64,000 bases of DNA from Ianthella basta (taxonomy: Eukaryota > Porifera > Demospongiae > Verongiida > Ianthellidae). A program made the position numbers and the translations under genes. The notes below the pieces were generated by a model. It did no database searches, was not told the DNA's origin, and worked only from the letters and a program-made list of their open reading frames with translations. Location of the stretch: positions 6,272,882 through 6,336,881 of the forward strand of contig OZ025869.1 in assembly GCA_964019415.1 (NCBI GenBank), given 5' to 3'. Shown here one piece after another: positions 5,166 through 61,568 of this stretch (position 1 is its first letter; each line of letters opens with the position of its first letter).

Positions 5166-6183
5166 GTCAATGTTGCGATAGGCTCACTGGAATGTGAACA
5201 CAAACCGACAACTCCATAGACCTGTCTGTCCATGTCTTCTTGAATATGGCCTCTGATACCAAGGACAATACTACCCCAGTGTCAATCTCCATTTCTATTG
5301 GGCAGTTGTCTACACTAAGCTTCACCTTGTATGGCGCAGACTTCTTGTTGCTCAGATTAAACAAATGGTACTCATCTCCTTCAACTTCTTCAGGCTCTTG
5401 CACCTGTCGCACCGAGTGGGGAGGACCAGAGGGCTTAGTTTTGCTGTAGCAAACTGACTAGATGTGACTTTTCTTGCCACATTTGTAACACACTGCACTT
5501 TTGAACTTGCACTGATAAGCCTCATGGCCTGATTTGCCACAACGATAGCAGGCTGAGGTCAACCTGCCTTTGAACCCATCTGACCTTCCTCTGTTCTGAA
5601 AGGCTGGCTGAGAGGTCACCTTGTGCACCTCCCTCTGAGAAGTAGCCACGGGTTCACCCTGCAGCTCTTTTAACATTCTGCACTGCAGTCTCCAATTCCT
5701 GAGCCAAGGACAAGGTTTTCTTGAAGATAAGTGGCGATTCCGACAATAAACGTTGCTGAACTGCTTTGTCATTAATCCCGCAGACTGGCTGATCCCAAAG
5801 CATCGCCTGCAGCGATGCGCCAAAGTTACATTGTTCGGCAATAGAGCGTAGCTCTGCCATGTACGCCGCCACCAATTCATCCAGCTGACGTATCCTGCTG
5901 TGGAACTTGAAATGCTGCATGGTCTCAGACGGGATCAGCTTGAAATACTTCGTTAGTACTGTTACCAAGTCTTTGTAAGACTTCTCTTCCAGCTTAGCTG
6001 GATTAAACTCCAAAGCACCTTAAATGTTGTGGGACCCATTGCGACCAGAAACACCACTTGCTTCTTCGCTCCTACAATGGCGTTTGCTATAAAGAACTGC
6101 CCAAGCCACTCCACGTATTGTGGCCAATCTTTCTTCGCTGAGTTGAACTCCTGTACTTGTCCGATCACCGTCGCCATCCTGTG
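5166..6183 (-). mobile_element. Gypsy/Ty3 fossil, gag to protease, interrupted by a P-like transposon
   Basis: The minus strand carries a gag start (MATVIGQVQEFNSAKKDW, near 6177), a gag body, CCHC knuckles (CYRCGKSGHEAYQC and a second, about 5560-5460) and an aspartic-protease region containing EIDTG (about 5290). It differs from the neighbouring fossil at 3346-5165, so these are two elements of one superfamily. The P-like transposon at 6191-9754 was inserted just upstream of the gag start, so the 5' part of this element, possibly including an LTR, should continue at 9762 and above. The element is broken in several places. Confidence 0.85.
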
Positions 6184-6190
6184 TGACAAA

Positions 6191-6234
6191 CCATAGATAG
6201 AGGAAAGAACGGGATTGGCAACGCGAACCGGAAG
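6191..6234 (+). repeat. Left terminal inverted repeat, P-like element copy 1
   Basis: 44 bp, beginning CATAGATAGAGG and ending GCGAACCGGAAGT. It pairs with 9711-9754 with two mismatches and matches the repeat of copy 2 at 37 of 44 positions. The inner edge is an ETS-type ACCGGAAGT. Confidence 0.93.
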
Positions 6235-6277
6235 TGTAGGATCTCCCGAGCGGATCACGTGCGTGCTTAGTAACAGA
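6235..6277 (+). promoter_or_regulatory. Conserved short leader of the plus-strand gene
   Basis: The 43 bases between the terminal repeat and the ATG contain CACGTG followed by TTAGTAAC. The same pair (CACGTG, TTAGCAAC) occurs at the equivalent place in copy 2 (about 57113-57130), though the rest has diverged. With the ETS-type motif in the repeat this probably forms the promoter. The conservation is seen; the role is inferred. Confidence 0.5.
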
Positions 6278-7312
6278 ATGGCTGCGACTTTACACGTACG
6301 CAATTATTGCAAGATGGCCATAGCAAATGCCGAGTCGGCGAGTAAGCGAGTCAGAAATGTTTTGGAACTTTTAGAGACCCCCGAACATTGCAGCTCCTTT
6401 TCGGAACGAGGGAAAAGGCAGATGCAAGGGGTGCAGCGTTTTAAAGAAGCAATTGGATTGCAGGAGAACAAGGAAAGATTTTGTCTTTTCTGAGAAGAGC
6501 TTTTGGGCGATGTATGCAGCTGTATAGCCAAGAAAGCGTCTTCCGTTGATGCGAAGAGGGAGAAATCTTATAAGATGTTCTACGAGAAGAGGATTTCAGC
6601 CATCCCCAAGCGATGGGATGATTTTCATGTTGTCCTTGGCTTGCAGCAACCTGATCCTGTGTGGACTCAGACTGCCAACAGGTTTCTGTTCAACCAGGAA
6701 CTAATTGCTTCTATTAAGAGTGATGGGGTGCCCGAATACAGACCTGTTGTGGCTTCTGAAGTGGATAAAGTGGACTTGGGAGCTGATGAAGAGAATATTG
6801 TAAGATATATGGCAGGCTACATACCATTCAAGCTACTTCAAGTTTACAAGAAGAAAGACTCCGCAGAGGCAGCCGATGTAGTTGATTTCTTGACTTCAAT
6901 GTCTCGGCCAGGCCCAGAAGAGGATTTTTATGCATATACGCAGGAGTGGACCAAATCCATTAGCGGGGGAGGTGTTTTTGAAGTTAGCAATGTTGTCTTC
7001 ACATTTTACCGACAGCAGGATGTAGTAATGTGAGAGCTGCTATCAAAGCATTTGATAAGTGGAACGATTAACAAGGATGAGGTGATGGAAGCCGTAATTA
7101 AAGATGAAGATCTGATGTTTCAATGGGCCATTTTATTCAGTCAGCTGACAAATGAAGGAAGCCAGTCAGTGCTGAAGCAAGTTCTTGATATATGGATGAC
7201 AATTCGTGGTCATGCCTTCGCAAAACAATTAATTGAAAAATACCAACATGACACTAAGAAAGGAACACGCAAAAAGCAGTCACTAAGAAAAGAACTTAGC
7301 AGAGGACAGTAG
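6278..7312 (+). pseudogene. Plus-strand accessory protein of P-like transposon, copy 1 (two in-frame stops)
   Basis: A single unspliced frame of about 344 codons, collinear with the intact 326-residue protein at 57213-58193. Shared landmarks are RGKRQ near the N-terminus, EKSYKMFYEKRI, EENIVRYMAGYIPFKLLQVY and DDxYAYTQEWTKS-type segments, and a C-terminal RGHAF. TGA stops at 6491-6493 and 7031-7033 interrupt the frame; there is no frameshift. The AGYIPFKL and GGG/GGVFEV segments resemble the helical C-terminal module found in several DDE transposases, but no catalytic acid triad is visible. Start chosen by alignment with copy 2 (MAAT at both). Function unknown. Confidence 0.8.
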
Positions 7313-7394
7313 TTATTTTATATACAATGCCATGCATAATTCATTAATTATAATACAGTTGCAATAAAATCATTATGTGTACAAATCTGCATGA

Positions 7395-9308
7395 CTACTT
7401 GTTAGTATTTCGCTTCCACTTTGGGAGGGGAGTGTCGTCTACTTGTGGTGGTGCATTTGCAAAAATCCATCGCTTTGCTTTGAATGAACTGCGCACCTCA
7501 TCTAGCACTGAAGATGTCTGCAGCCTGATGACATCTGTAGCCTCCTGGACAGTCTTAGAACTGGGGTTGCTGCTCCATCCTCCACTTTGTCGAACCTTGC
7601 CAAAAGATAAAGACACGACCATGAAGTCACACCGTTCCAGCTTCTCCACAGCCTCCCACAGGGTGTCATGAAGTTCGACGCCAGTGACGCCTGCTGTTGG
7701 AAAGTTAGCAAGAGGGAGCCGCAAACTGGAAAATATCCCTCTCACCATCAGTGTGAGAATGCGTGTGGATATCTCTGGAATATGTCCCGATGTGGCCATC
7801 TCCAGGGCTGTCAAGCCCAACAAACCTGTATGTGCATGTGCACAGTGGAACAGTTCACATGCTTACATGCACATCACTAACATGTGCATGCATGTATACT
7901 ATGCATGGAGATGTGTTTATATGCGCATACCGGTTGTGGTAAGCAACACTGTCTTGTCCCTTTCTTGCCTCATCAAATAGCTGCTTCATCACTTCAGGAT
8001 TGAATCCTTCCATGGCTTTGATGATGTTAGAGTAGTCCCGCAGCGTACGCTCTGATGGCAGAACCAGCATGCCTGATGTCCGCAGGTTGTGGTATGCGGC
8101 ACCAGACATCATGTGCAAATTTAGGCACCACTTGATGATAAGTGGATGCCATCTACGTTGCCGTGGATCTTTGCAGGACAAGGCTTTCAACTGTTGCTCC
8201 CAGAAAAGCTTCTTGAAGCTGTCGTTCGACAAGGCCTTCTGAAGTGCCTCTGATTCTGCTTCCATAATTTTGGCGAGGTCAGCATCAGCACTTCCATCAA
8301 CTGTGGAACTGTACTTTGTGTGCAATGCCTCAACGCGTGAAGCTAAGGCAGCGATCTTCCTTTTTGACGCTTCCTTCTCGTAGGCCAATTCAGACAATTT
8401 TGACAGCTTAAGAGGTGTTGACAAATGCACATTATGAGTAAATTTGCTGGTTGTGCCCTACTTTACCTTCCCCCTTTCAACCTTGTTCTGAAGCATTTTC
8501 CCTCAATTGCATGCAGTGCTGGCACCGGATCAGCTGACCAGAAATGAGCAGCTCACAGCTTTCATCTCTGCATGTTCACATCTGCACCACTCCATCCCTG
8601 TTCACAGTTGGAACTTTGTCCATAATGGCATTGTACGTATGTAGCTTCATGTCCACAACATCCAAGAGGGATGAATCAGCCACTCCTTCACACAAGTGAT
8701 GTGCCTCTATGTGTTCCAGAAGCTGGGCTAGAGATGAACTATCACACGATGATGGAAAGGATGGTGTCAGTGGCAGCAATTTCCCATGAACCCACAATTG
8801 CCATCTATCAGTGAAAGACACAATGTGTGTGAAGAACATGGGTGGGCAATCATCTGGGATTCCATCAGTTTAAAGCCTGTACACTGATGTTTTCTGTCCT
8901 GTACTGTGCAGCTTCCAGTTATTGAACGATGCAGGAATTGTCACACGTTCAGCACTACTGCTGCTCGGAGACACGGAAGCAAGGTACTGTGACACTTTTG
9001 CAGTCACAGAACGGGGGCTGATGCACTTGAGTGGTGTAACAGGGTCTGAAATGAGATGCAAGGAGTACACACATGCAGTAGCATACAGCAGAAATAGTAG
9101 CTACTTGCCAAATAGAACAAGCATATACATGACAGTGTGTGGTTGGCAATAATTTCTTACCTGTAACTGTAGCTTGTTGATCATCTGCTGTGGTAGACTG
9201 AACTGCTGCACTGTCTGGAGTCTCAGCTTGGTCCTGTCGCTTCAGATCAGCCTTCCTCCTCTCACCCTTCCTCTGTGTAAGTCTGGTGCGCTTACTTTTT
9301 GGAGGCAT
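7395..9308 (-). pseudogene. THAP9/P-element-type transposase, copy 1, spliced and decayed
   Basis: Exon 1 (9308-9161) encodes a lysine/arginine-rich start (MPPKSKRTRLTQRKGERR) and ends at a GTAAG donor. The next exon (about 9049-8580) begins DPVTPLKCISP. A zinc-pair exon follows (RCQHC, about 8530), then a coiled coil and the P-type helix-turn-helix segment RRWHPLIIKWCLNLH (about 8150), then RGIFSSLRLPLANFPTAG and the C-terminal GKVRQSGGWSSNP. A TAA interrupts the second exon after VYRL. The stretch that should hold the first catalytic aspartate, and the later SDVPH region, are absent, so this copy cannot encode an active enzyme. No THAP zinc finger is seen. Confidence 0.82.
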
Positions 9309-9710
9309 GGCAAAGATCGATTGCCTAGCAGAGGAGATGCAAATGATCAGTAAAAATCGGCCGTCACGCACTTCACACAAGATGACAAGACACAGCAATA
9401 ACAGCCAACTCACCGAAAACTTCACACAGCGCACAGGCATGAATGCAAAAGTTGATCGTCTGTACTACGTCTTCTTGTGCAGCCCAAATCTCAATGCTGG
9501 AATGACTGGTGGAGGTGCAAATGCTTATGGTGCCTAGGAGACTGGTTGATGCGTGGTTTCCACTGGGTTTCCGGGGACTAGGTAGCATACGGCCCTCTGA
9601 ACGGGCCGATCAATGCACAGAAACTGGTGCAAAACCGTCCTTAACAACCGTTGCTTGGATACGGGGCTGCTCGGAACCTCCGAAGTATTGGAGGTACGGA
9701 ATTTATACAG

Positions 9711-9754
9711 ACTTTCGGTTCGCGTTGCCAATCTCGTTCTTTCCTCTATCTATG
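9711..9754 (-). repeat. Right terminal inverted repeat, P-like element copy 1
   Basis: Reverse complement of 6191-6234 with two C-to-T type differences, one of which spoils the ETS-type motif. The neighbouring subterminal sequence (GGAATTTATACAGAC) is shared with the right end of copy 2 (GGAATTTATACGGAC, about 61451-61465). Confidence 0.93.
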
Positions 9755-9761
9755 GACAAAC

Positions 9762-57040: not shown

Positions 57041-57047
57041 GATAATT

Positions 57048-57091
57048 CATAGACAAACGAGGGAACGGGACTGGCAACGCGGACCGGAAGT
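57048..57091 (+). repeat. Left terminal inverted repeat, P-like element copy 2
   Basis: 44 bp from CATAGACAAACGAGG to GCGGACCGGAAGT; perfect inverse of 61465-61508. Ends in the ETS-type ACCGGAAGT. A CACGTG and TTAGCAAC follow at 57113-57130, as in copy 1. Confidence 0.95.
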
Positions 57092-57212
57092 TGTACTAGG
57101 TGCGTACAGGTCACGTGTTTCGTTAGCAACGAGCTATGATGAAATTGAGGAAAATGGCGGCAAGTACAACACAGTTGCCGAGACGACGACGAAGTGTCAA
57201 GACGATTACGAG

Positions 57213-58193
57213 ATGGCGGCTACAAGTCAAGACGATTGCAGAAGGCTGATGGACGCGTTGGATGTTCTAGGAACGGGATTGTACTCCAACTCGTTTTCAT
57301 CGAGGGGGAAGAGGCAAATTGATGAGGTTGACCGGTTCAAGCGCGCGATTGGCGCAGAGGAGCAGCAGGAACTTTTCGAACGCTTTGCAAAGCACCTTAT
57401 GCATCTGATAAGAAGTTGTATTGCCGAACCCGCTGCGTCCAAAGACAGAAGGCGGGAGAAATCCTATAGCTTGTTTTACAGTAAGCGAATAGGTGAATTG
57501 AAGAAACTGTGGAATGATATCCACAGCCAACTTCGATTACCTCAGCATGATCCCATATGGACCCAGAGTTTGAACCGGATTTTGTTCAACCAATCTTTGG
57601 TGTCATGCATTGGAGTAGCAAGGCAGGAGCAGCAGCCAACAGGATGCACTGTAAGTGAAGAACCGGCCATGGGGACTGATGAAGAAAACATCATTCGATA
57701 CATGGCAGGCTACATCCCATTTAAGTTAATGAAAGTTTACGAGAAGAGAGACACACAGGAGGATGCTAATGTGCTTGACTGCTTGAGTGACATGGCTATT
57801 GCAGGCCCAGTGGATGACTTTTATGCCTACACACAAGAATGGACCAAATCTGTCAACAGAGGAGGCCTGTTTGAGGTCAAAGATGTTGTCTTCACTTTTT
57901 TCAGAAAGTTGGAGATTCTTACAAGGAGCCTGCTGCCACAACACTTGCTGGCAGGAACTGTGAGTAAGGAGGATGTGCATGCTCACATCTTACAAGATGA
58001 AGATCTCCTTTTCAATTGGGACATTATATCATGCCAATTGTCCCATGAGACATCAAGACAACTTTTAAAAGATGTGGCAGATTTGTGGCTGACCATACGT
58101 GGACATGCATTTGTAAAACAGATAATGGAAGAACATAAGGCTGAAAAAGGAAAGTTGACAAAGAAAAGCAAAGCTCTCAGAAAACAGATATAG
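57213..58193 (+). CDS. Plus-strand accessory protein of the P-like transposon (intact, 326 residues)
   Basis: An unspliced frame, open even through the terminal repeat; start set at MAATSQDDCRRLMDALDVLG because copy 1 begins MAAT at the same point. Segments: RGKRQIDEVDRFKRAIGAEE (about 30-50), REKSYSLFYSKRIGELKKLW (85-105), a central EENIIRYMAGYIPFKLMKVY (about 155-175), DDFYAYTQEWTKSVNRGGLF (200-220), VVFTFFRKLEILTRSLLPQH (225-245), LWLTIRGHAFVKQIMEE and a lysine-rich tail. The Y-AGY-...-KL and NRGGL...V..FF...E pattern is like the C-terminal helical module of hAT/P-type transposases, here as a separate protein. No catalytic triad or zinc finger. Role could be transposase partner, but this is inference. 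Confidence 0.85.
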   Translation: MAATSQDDCRRLMDALDVLGTGLYSNSFSSRGKRQIDEVDRFKRAIGAEEQQELFERFAKHLMHLIRSCIAEPAASKDRRREKSYSLFYSKRIGELKKLWNDIHSQLRLPQHDPIWTQSLNRILFNQSLVSCIGVARQEQQPTGCTVSEEPAMGTDEENIIRYMAGYIPFKLMKVYEKRDTQEDANVLDCLSDMAIAGPVDDFYAYTQEWTKSVNRGGLFEVKDVVFTFFRKLEILTRSLLPQHLLAGTVSKEDVHAHILQDEDLLFNWDIISCQLSHETSRQLLKDVADLWLTIRGHAFVKQIMEEHKAEKGKLTKKSKALRKQI

Positions 58194-58282
58194 AGTAACA
58201 TATACTACACTAACAAGCTAATCATGCATGTATATGTCAGTATTTCATGTTGAATGATATAAAAATAAGAGTTAAATAAGAG

Positions 58283-60761
58283 TTACGAATGACTGCTTCT
58301 TGGGTTTCTGCTACGCTTGGGCAGTGGCGTGTCATCAATTTTTTCAGCAGTATTCAAAATTCGCCTTTTCACAGCAGGGGCTCCTCTAACTTCGCTCATC
58401 ACAGATGAAGTCTGTAGACGAATTGTGTCAGTTGCCTGCTCCACAGTCTGGGCACTGGGATTTCCACTCCAGCCTCCACTTTGTCTAATTCTTCCAAACA
58501 AGTTTTCCAGGGGATCTTGGTTGAACTTGCCGCTCAGTATGTAGCACTGCTGACGCTGAAGGGCAGGATCACTCAGTAGCTCCTTCACAATAGCTACAAA
58601 TGATTGAACTGCATGTATGGGATGAACATGAAGAGCACTTTCAATTAACTACATTAATTGTAAGTATGAATGCAGTACATAATTATACATACCTGTCATC
58701 CGAAGGCCTTCTCTGGTTTCTCTTGACAAGAGCATGAGCGCCTTCTGAGCTGCACTGAAGCCTGGTCTGCTCTGCACTCCTGCCTCCCAGTCACTGAAAT
58801 AACTGAGGAATGCATCCTCTAGCCACTGCAAGTTAATTACATGAGAGAGGCACATGTATACACATTGTGATTGCATACATTATATGCATGCACTATCAAC
58901 TTTAAGTAGTATCATACCAGTAGTCTTTCATCATCAGCACTTGTGTATGGCTTCAAATCTGCCTTCCTGGTGTGAACAGTCTCCCCTTTACTTCGTACAT
59001 TAAGCATGTCAAAAAATCGGTCCATGAATAACATAAAAGTCTGTGTGGCTGAGGACCCGGAGATGCCATACAGCTTCATGGCTTCACATGCGCTTCTGCT
59101 CAACACCTACGGTGCAGTTTTAACAAGATATAAGGACATGTCACACATTATTCCTGTCTATAGATATATCAGTACAATAATTATGCACAGCACACCTGAG
59201 CTGCCAAGTCCACTCTCATCCGAGACCGCGAAGTAAGGAAGATGTGTTCCCGTGTCAGTTTATGAGCAAGCTTTAGACCACCACTTCTAGCAGCACAAGA
59301 CAGGGTGGCCTCGTATAAGTTCTCCACATGCTTCCACTCCAGAGTGAACCCCTTGTTCTGTGCAGTATAGGCATTACCATTTACATAATACAGCTACTAT
59401 TATATGTATGTATACATGTAATATTATGCAATGCACACGTACTTACCCAAAGCAGTCGTGTACGGCCATAGCCTGAGTGAGACAAATTGTTCCTTGCTGT
59501 CTTCACTAGGTGAGGGACATCCGAAAAGAAGTACAGCCATCTCTCGTCCAGACTGTAGGGATTGGTTGCCTTGTGAAAATGACCATGAAGTTTGTAGAAC
59601 CTGCATGTGATATAGTGAGCCGGACTACATGTATACTTGCAGTGCTGCATATTGTATATACAAGGTATGTTAACAATCCTTCATTGAGGTTAACTGCCCA
59701 ATACTAACCTTTGGTGGGGACTGCCTCCATCTCCAGTCTGGAAACAAACAATGAAATCACTGCGTTCCAAGTGCTCTGTTGCTTCCCACATGATGTCGTG
59801 CAGAATGCATGCCCTGATCCCCGCCGTTGGAAAGTTGGCAAGTGGAAAGTGAAGTTCTGAGAAAATGCCCCTAACCATCAAGGTTAGCATTCGTGTGGCA
59901 ATGGTAGGAGGAGACAGTGAGCTGTCCACTTCAAGGGCAGAAAGCTGTTGGTCCACATCTCCCAGGTTGACGAAGCCAATAACCTTGGATGAATACTTAT
60001 CATACACAAGGTCCTCCCTGATGTAGATCTCATCGAAGACAATGCCAATGAACCTAACACGTATGCACAAAGTTGAGACGACATGGGTAATATAGATGGT
60101 AGGGTATCCCTCTGGGATACCTTTGGTCAGAATCCGGTAAATCGTGACACTCGAGTTGTCAGTGTGCATCTTCCAAGCAGGAAGTGTGGAAGGGAGCTCT
60201 AGATGGTCATCTGAAGAAGTGGCAATTGGCGACAAAGATAAATTTGCACCAACAGCAAATGAGGCTGGATTAAGATGCTTCATTGGTGTCACTGGGCCAG
60301 AACAACCTATACAAAATGAGTACAAGCAAGCACGTCATGTTTGAGTGATCTATGTATTAAACATAAAACACCAGCGTATACAATGGGAGTAAATTGCAAC
60401 ACACATCCAAGTTCTTTTAACTATTATGGAAGTACTTACCTGCAGGATAAACATCCTTTGACAATGAGGTACTAGATGGTGTAACTGGATCAGCAACTTC
60501 CTCAGCCGTAGATAGCTGGCACCCCAAGTTCACTACATCTGTAGTGGACTGGCACCCCAAATCCTCTTCTGCAGACCGGCTCTCCAAATCCTCTTCTGCA
60601 GACCGGCAACCCACATCCTCTTCTGTGGCTAGAGACTGACACACCATATCCTCTGCTACTTCTGCACTAACTTTGGCTCCTGTTTGGACATTCTGCACCT
60701 TGGCAGCACTCCTGTGCCTACCTTTTTTTCTTCTGCTCCATTTGGGCTTATATTGAGGCAT
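58283..60761 (-). pseudogene. THAP9/P-element-type transposase, copy 2, spliced, lacking the HTH part
   Basis: Exon 1 (60761-60439): MPQYKPKWSRRKKGRHRSAA and a tandem acidic repeat (CRSAEEDLESRSAEEDLGCQ). Exon 2 (60306-59716): CSGPVTPMKHLNPASFAV, GIVFDEIYIREDLVYDKYSS with the first catalytic aspartate, VIGFVNLGD, FPLANFPTAGI and TGDGGSPHQR with the second. Then FYKLHGHFHKATNPY, WLYFFSDVPHLVKTARNNLS (about 59610-59460), exons at 59360-59210, 59106-58912, 58830-58690 and 58600-58283 (DPLENLFGRIRQSGGWSGNP). Compared with copy 1, the zinc-pair, coiled coil and RRWHP helix region between THVVS and IGIVFDE is missing. No THAP finger. Splice sites are mostly GT/AG. Confidence 0.82.
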
Positions 60762-61464
60762 TTCTGTCTGCATGCAGGGACAGACATACAGTATTGAAAG
60801 CTCAAAATAAGCTACAAACTAATATAACCATAGACATTGGTGTGTCTATGATATAACAAACAATGCTAAAGTTAAATGACAGCTAACTGCTATTTATCTG
60901 TATATAACTAATCCTATAGCTCAAATCTGCATGCCAGTGGTCTGTTTTGCACTCAATCACATCATAGACAAAGAAAGGAAGAGATTGCTATTGCAACACA
61001 TAGTCTGTAGCCTTTCTGGGCCCTTCTCTTGCAGTATGGAAGAAGATTTGTGAAGGGGCAGGACAAATATCAAAGTTTATGTGGCAAAACTGCAAGAATG
61101 GACTTAAATCGCAGCCTAAGCAATGCACCATAGATAGAACTTCACAACTATACCATTGGACTCACCTAAGACCTTGTGCAGGCAGAAATCCTTCGCTCCC
61201 AATTTCAATCGTCTGCTACGCTCCCGCTTGGGAGCGAACGATCTCGACGTACGAATGTCACACGAAGGTGCGAGTTTCACGTTGCCATAGAGCATTCGTA
61301 GTCGCATGGTATACGCTAGGTATGCAGCACGTGCGACGGAAGAGGCCGACAATATACGGCAATTTGTAGGCATAACCGTAGAGAAATTCCTCCATTAACA
61401 CCTTTGCTTGGAAACGGAAGCTGTACGAACCTACTACAATATTGGAGATAGGGAATTTATACGG

Positions 61465-61508
61465 ACTTCCGGTCCGCGTTGCCAGTCCCGTTCCCTCGTT
61501 TGTCTATG
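61465..61508 (-). repeat. Right terminal inverted repeat, P-like element copy 2
   Basis: Perfect inverse of 57048-57091. Further inward, GTACGAACCTACTACAA (about 61424-61440) is an imperfect inverse of TTGTACTAGGTGCGTAC near 57091-57107, so the inverted homology continues past a 28-base insertion. Confidence 0.95.
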
Positions 61509-61568
61509 GATAATTCAAAGGTGTTAACTAATCGTTATTGCCCCAAGGCGCTTATTGGGGCGCTTATT

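Follow-up and report, generated by a model that had tools for sequence, protein, structure and literature searches.

The genome of the sponge Ianthella basta carries a family of P-superfamily transposons in which the transposase gene is accompanied by a second, convergent gene, and the evidence supports that this second gene, on the plus strand, belongs to the family. As far as our searches reach, such a gene is new to P-type elements. The observed anatomy of the elements, their recurrence in the genome, the co-divergence of the two genes and the constraint on both proteins between lineages underlie an account that we regard as fairly probable as a whole, namely that of a cut-and-paste family of the P superfamily with two genes, in which the protein of the plus-strand gene would be a transposase partner that is encoded by the element itself.

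Two elements with convergent genes

Two such elements lie in the window, which is the whole analysed stretch of 64,000 nucleotides, and an earlier note, made from the sequence alone, had already claimed their presence and the convergent arrangement of their genes. Both run from CATAG to CTATG and are delimited by inverted ends and target-site duplications, copy 1 at 6192-9754 and copy 2 at 57048-61508; the earlier note had the limits of copy 2 right but let copy 1 begin at 6191, one base early. The terminal inverted repeats were located at 6192..6236 and 9710..9754 in copy 1 and at 57048..57092 and 61464..61508 in copy 2 by inverted-repeat detection. Their arms measure 45 and 50 nt, respectively, with 96% complementarity in each copy, and a direct count over the ends, which are about 45 bp long, gave the 37 of 44 positions alike between the copies that had been noted before. 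The flanking duplications, read from the sequence, are exact and 7 bp long, as claimed: GACAAAC at 6185..6191 and 9755..9761 for copy 1, and GATAATT at 57041..57047 and 61509..61515 for copy 2.

The plus-strand gene of copy 1 (6278..7312, delimited by protein and reading-frame matches, with a putative start codon) is broken by in-frame TGA codons at 6491-6493 and 7031-7033 and otherwise open to the TAG at 7310-7312. In copy 2 the frame is open from 56982 to the stop codon at 58191-58193, which makes 403 codons from stop to stop, and the gene (57213..58193) is unbroken from its first in-frame ATG, the putative start codon, with 326 aa, so that the description of the frame as open in copy 2 and nearly open in copy 1 was accurate. 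The likely start codons lie 86 (copy 1) and 165 (copy 2) bases inside the left end. On the minus strand, Pfam matches and comparison with the relative P0112 place the transposase gene at 7395..9308 in copy 1, where it is in pieces and internally deleted and its outer limits are approximate, and at 58283..60818 in copy 2, with a putative 5' exon and approximate limits. The stop codons of the two convergent genes are separated by 82 bases in copy 1 and 89 in copy 2, within the 80-90 bases noted earlier.

Reading frames on the minus strand at 5461-6303 adjoin the left end of copy 1 and give a weak match to a CCHC zinc knuckle (E 0.009, below the Pfam cut-off). As these frames abut the element, the insertion of copy 1 may have hit a retroelement's gag-like gene or its immediate vicinity.

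The transposase

Judged from its domains, the minus-strand gene is a P-superfamily transposase. The TNP-like RNase H N and C domains are present in copy 2 (PF21787, E 5e-15; PF21789, E 9e-10), and copy 1 matches PF21787 with E 2e-7. The relative P0112, a protein of 835 aa that aligns with 42% of the joined transposase query at 54% identity, carries PF21787, PF21788 and PF21789 and matches the solved structure of the Drosophila P transposase (6p5a) with E 3.6e-13, a match that is strong over a middle stretch only and weak at the motifs FDE and QD..E.

Comparison with P0112 reveals what the copies have lost. Copy 1 matches it at about 9037-8501, 8454-7918, 7814-7503 and 7604-7413, with residues about 372-403, which include the first catalytic D, left unmatched and no true match over about 470-737, the part that holds the second D, DxxH, the GTP-binding insertion and the third acidic residue. 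Copy 2 matches at about 60055-59447, 59354-59193, 59106-58921 and 58831-58313, with nothing matched before residue 367, and retains on the minus strand the motifs FDEIYI (60020-60037), GDGGSP (59717-59734), DVPH (59510-59521) and QDPLEN (58502-58519). The GTP-binding insertion (PF21788) of P0112 is matched by copy 2 at 50-65% identity and is missing in copy 1. The element L039 (5498 bp) elsewhere in the genome still has the region that copy 2 lacks, although its frame is broken. Both window copies are thus non-autonomous relics with internally deleted transposase genes: the spliced minus-strand transposase of the earlier note stands as far as its superfamily is concerned, but neither copy holds a complete gene. 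Internal deletion is well known among P elements.

No THAP domain was found. The C2CH pattern is absent from copy 1, copy 2, L041 and L042, in a search that could miss a THAP domain split by an intron, and where the pattern does match, in L039, L040 and L043, the match is on the opposite strand, lies downstream, or overlaps the RNase H region. Pfam scans detected no THAP domain in the first exon of copy 2, the only stretch of the window so scanned, nor in eight transposase relatives (P0112-P0119), two of which, P0112 and P0118, have their full length. Because no THAP domain was found, and with a transposase that is not the only gene, classification as a classical P/THAP9 element was rejected. 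The transposase of the family would rather represent a branch with an RNase H core and a GTP-binding insertion in which no THAP domain is found. Like Drosophila P and THAP9, this branch has an RNase H core interrupted by a GTP-binding insertion, inverted ends and internally deleted copies, but it differs from them in the THAP domain, in duplications of 7 instead of 8 bp, in the second convergent gene, and in the early end of its relatives, P0112 and P0118 stopping 76 and 34 aa past the last RNase H match. In P0118, a P-type transposase relative from a sea cucumber, the N-terminal region shows zf-AD-like and RAG1-importin-binding-like matches in place of a THAP domain.

The plus-strand protein family

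The plus-strand protein has 111 relatives at E 1e-3, 89 of which were already found from a single sequence, and 61 of the 111 are at least 280 aa long; the named ones include uncharacterised proteins of the sea stars Patiria miniata and Acanthaster planci, and LOC119729269 and LOC110990655 are sea star genes of the family. The alignment is marked by the motifs Y.[ASC]G[YF] (78 of 82 rows) and RGG[LIV] (74 of 82), by a single conserved cysteine column (kept in 70 of 81 rows) and by a basic tail, K..LRK..L, a loose pattern seen in 40 of 82 rows, many of which end early. The predicted structures are all-helical and yielded no fold match, and there was no convincing match in Pfam or the PDB. One relative, P0001, is recorded under the name of an alphaproteobacterial MAG and matches 91% of the copy 2 query with 100% identity; it is likely that this is DNA of the animal host that was binned with a bacterium.

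Two of the 111 relatives, P0089 and P0109, are annotated in the database with PF22824, which is named THAP9_C. This family was not among the best 25 of 50 families in an hmmscan of 82 plus-family members, and with the model version used it was not found for the family consensus, P0089 or P0109, so that the label serves as a lead only. It fits the early end of P0112 and P0118, and it fits the C-terminal domain of zebrafish THAP9 and Drosophila P that is described in the accessible text of PMC10983969 and PMC7776569. From this a tentative reading can be drawn, which we hold to be possible though not the likelier outcome: the transposase might be split, with a THAP9-type C-terminal domain that has become a separate gene on the opposite strand, has gained an N-terminal helical half and would act in trans. 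The C-termini of THAP9 presumably bear a GY...GGL pattern similar to that of the plus family. No fusion of the plus-strand protein with the transposase occurred among the eight hits examined.

Recurrence of the two-gene plan in the genome

In a search of 209 Mb of the genome, the left 510 bases of copy 1 gave at least 34 matches and the plus-strand protein at least 53, which were grouped into 35 loci, and PF21787 was found at eight loci. A convergent plus-type gene lies beside six of these eight (copy 1, copy 2, L039, L040, L041 and L042), in L040 as a fragment of about 80 codons only; of the other two, L043 stops mid-gene and L048 belongs to a distant lineage. The plus-type gene thus accompanies all six transposase loci of the branch in which the 3' part is seen, in agreement with the earlier note, which took it for a part of the element. 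Five of them, three outside the window, are complete two-gene elements (copy 1, copy 2, L039, L041 and L042), and in each of the five the transposase has coding matches over the core and a convergent plus gene. They represent four lineages (copy 2 with L039, copy 1, L041, L042) with plus-strand proteins 27-49% identical, and their duplications read ATGTTAT in L039 and GTGTAAC in L041, while those of L042 agree in six of seven bases.

The comparison of the ends covered 15 elements, selected for having both ends identified. CATAG/CTATG ends are present in every one of them, and the 7-bp duplications are exact in 14, a length that fits the 7-8 bp of the P superfamily; the inexact one is that of L042, and the duplication of L031 lies within a CA repeat. 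Ten of the 15 are derivative elements (L024-L029, L031, L032, L049 and L050), and all of these except L026 have kept pieces of the plus gene. No transposase was found in L024, L025, L027, L028, L029, L031 and L034 (one end seen) despite their plus-gene pieces, and L032 has, next to its piece, a weak transposase trace (E 0.009). The earlier note had raised the case that most copies lack the plus gene; most indeed lack an intact one, as they lack an intact transposase, but a piece is present in 14 of the 15 elements that are complete in their ends. No copy that was read has both genes clearly intact.

Seen from the 35 plus-gene loci, a transposase trace follows convergently behind the gene at 14 (copy 1, copy 2, L030, L039-L042, L046 and L049-L054), a recognisable end is present at 21, and one or the other at 25. 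The remaining ten (L055-L061 and L063-L065) show neither a clear end nor a transposase in flanks of 1.6-2.5 kb, with weak end matches at three of them, and this is what could be expected if the plus gene were a host gene that came to lie within some copies by chance. We regard this as very improbable, as the ten loci are represented by short stretches in which the match is diverged or incomplete, and the three unbroken full-length plus frames among the matches listed all lie in or against elements: those of copy 2 (403 codons) and L042 (343) within complete elements, and that of L046 (379) next to the one end that can be recognised there, followed beyond the plus gene by the last transposase exon, with no second end within the 9.5 kb read.

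Some copies have a composite structure. L026 (G000:C23:5354997-5358916) has CATAG ends and an exact 7-bp duplication, and its interior is a nested retroelement with a reverse-transcriptase reading frame of 1051 aa and a poly(A) tail, flanked by 156 and 129 bases that are common to other P-like copies. This retroelement has 45 related matches in the genome and looks recently active, since five of them are unbroken and full-length at 99-100% identity. A relative of it, 67% identical, lies about 450 bases inside the lone P-like end of L033 (C7), and another 97 bases outside the element end of L025 (C1). L032 (C1:3699300-3703900) has two tandem CATAG ends (585-623 and 629-672) with the common flank GGTCAAC, as if one end had been shortened by, or abutted, another insertion.

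Selection and co-divergence

Close copies of the plus gene (copy 2, L046, L066 and L039) gave NG86 ratios of dN to dS of 0.26-1.02 with few differences, and the groups of middle distance 0.40-0.62 (L042/L053/L059) and 0.63 (L049-L050). The YN00 ratios, available for six pairs only, all close or of middle distance, are 0.69-1.09, with 0.69-0.94 for the middle groups. Between lineages, dN is 0.28-0.78 and dS is saturated or 2.9-3.4, with finite ratios of 0.08 and 0.10. The transposase behaves similarly, with NG86 ratios of 0.29-1.22 in close pairs and, between lineages, dN of 0.23-0.59, mostly saturated dS and finite ratios of 0.11, 0.18 and 0.47, the last from the exceptional pair copy 2-L051 (dS 0.68). 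Since dN stays at 0.23-0.78 between lineages while dS is mostly saturated, both proteins are constrained, and so they were apparently maintained during the spread of the lineages, with decay in place afterwards. The earlier note had taken the open frames as a sign of selection. Drift among close copies is nearly neutral, however, so that the open frame of copy 2 is in itself no evidence for it, and present activity is not demonstrated by these near-neutral ratios; the constraint is seen between the lineages.

The two genes also diverged in parallel. In 48 of the 55 pairs of 11 loci, the identities of the plus-strand proteins and of the transposases are correlated with r 0.81, which none of 5000 label shuffles reached, a count that is a guide and not a probability because the pairs are related and not independent. 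Both proteins form the same groups (copy 2/L039/L046/L051, L042/L053 and L040/L054, and copy 1 and L041 outside them). The two genes share a joint evolutionary history, and a partner protein that is absent from classical P elements may be required in this lineage.

These data bear on the explanation that the plus gene is a passenger, taken up a single time by an ancestor of these elements and transmitted with them although it has no part in transposition. The near-neutral drift among close copies would agree with this, as would the decayed plus-gene pieces that non-autonomous copies retain, but the constraint between lineages at saturated dS and the parallel divergence with the transposase across five groups of loci speak against it, and we consider it improbable.

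A possible partner of the transposase

The complete element would thus consist of two genes arranged tail to tail between the ends CATAG...CTATG, flanked by 7-bp target duplications. The helical plus-strand protein would enter the nucleus, perhaps by means of its basic tail, and join the transposase at the element ends as a partner that is needed for transposition. There it might take over DNA binding or assembly, functions that in classical P elements belong to the THAP and C-terminal domains.

Alternatively, the protein could be a regulator outside the cutting complex that counters silencing by the host or tunes the expression of the transposase, a function that has been reported for accessory proteins in certain Mutator-like elements of plants. 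A separate gene that is read from the opposite end of the element and is constrained like the transposase is compatible with such a function, and the basic tail would fit a nuclear protein. Anti-silencing factors, however, usually evolve rapidly and are specific to a lineage, whereas the constraint on the plus-strand protein resembles that on the transposase and its relatives occur in sea stars, and a regulator is therefore rather unlikely in our view; we prefer a partner of the transposase.

Relation to other transposons

Two-gene plans are known from MuDR, with mudrA and mudrB in convergent orientation, and from PIF/Harbinger, where the transposase is accompanied by a Myb-like protein; these are other superfamilies, and the partner proteins were compared by Pfam scans only. 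P elements serve as a standard model for transposition in animals, and a single transposase is described as running them. The earlier note had placed the second, opposite gene outside the known plan of P and THAP9 elements, and no description of a second gene in P-type elements was noticed in full-text searches of open-access literature; the accessible text of PMC6004289 and PMC13228809 mentions none. Within the P superfamily, Galileo typically has 7-bp duplications as well (PMC4168063), but for Galileo and 1360 no second gene is mentioned in the accessible parts of the sources; according to the part available of PMC3688188, the inverted repeats of Galileo are unusually long, unlike those of the family here.

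The convergent two-gene plan itself is already published for other transposons. RAG-like transposons, relatives of Transib, have a transposase and an accessory gene in convergent orientation between inverted ends (accessible text of PMC7204232), but they differ in their core, their RAG2-like partner and their 5-bp duplications, and assignment to them was rejected in view of the 7 bp found here. Kolobok is a DDE superfamily that shares the C/DxxH motif with P; Kol0 encodes KolX, and KolobokP an accessory His-Me nuclease downstream on the complementary strand, as stated in the accessible part of PMC9587614. Kolobok duplicates TTAA and KolobokP 3-5 bp, as against 7 bp in the family here, for which Kolobok was rejected on the missing TTAA duplication, and KolX has seven conserved cysteines compared with one in the plus family.

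Significance

An unannotated protein family that occurs in sea stars and in many public assemblies is now linked to a transposon. If the second protein has been kept over deep divergence, the P superfamily can carry a second component, as RAG-like and Kolobok transposons do. If the transposase were split, the superfamily would hold a heteromeric machine of two subunits, parallel to RAG1/RAG2. A branch with two genes would offer a natural means to dissect the roles of the THAP domain and the C-terminal domain.
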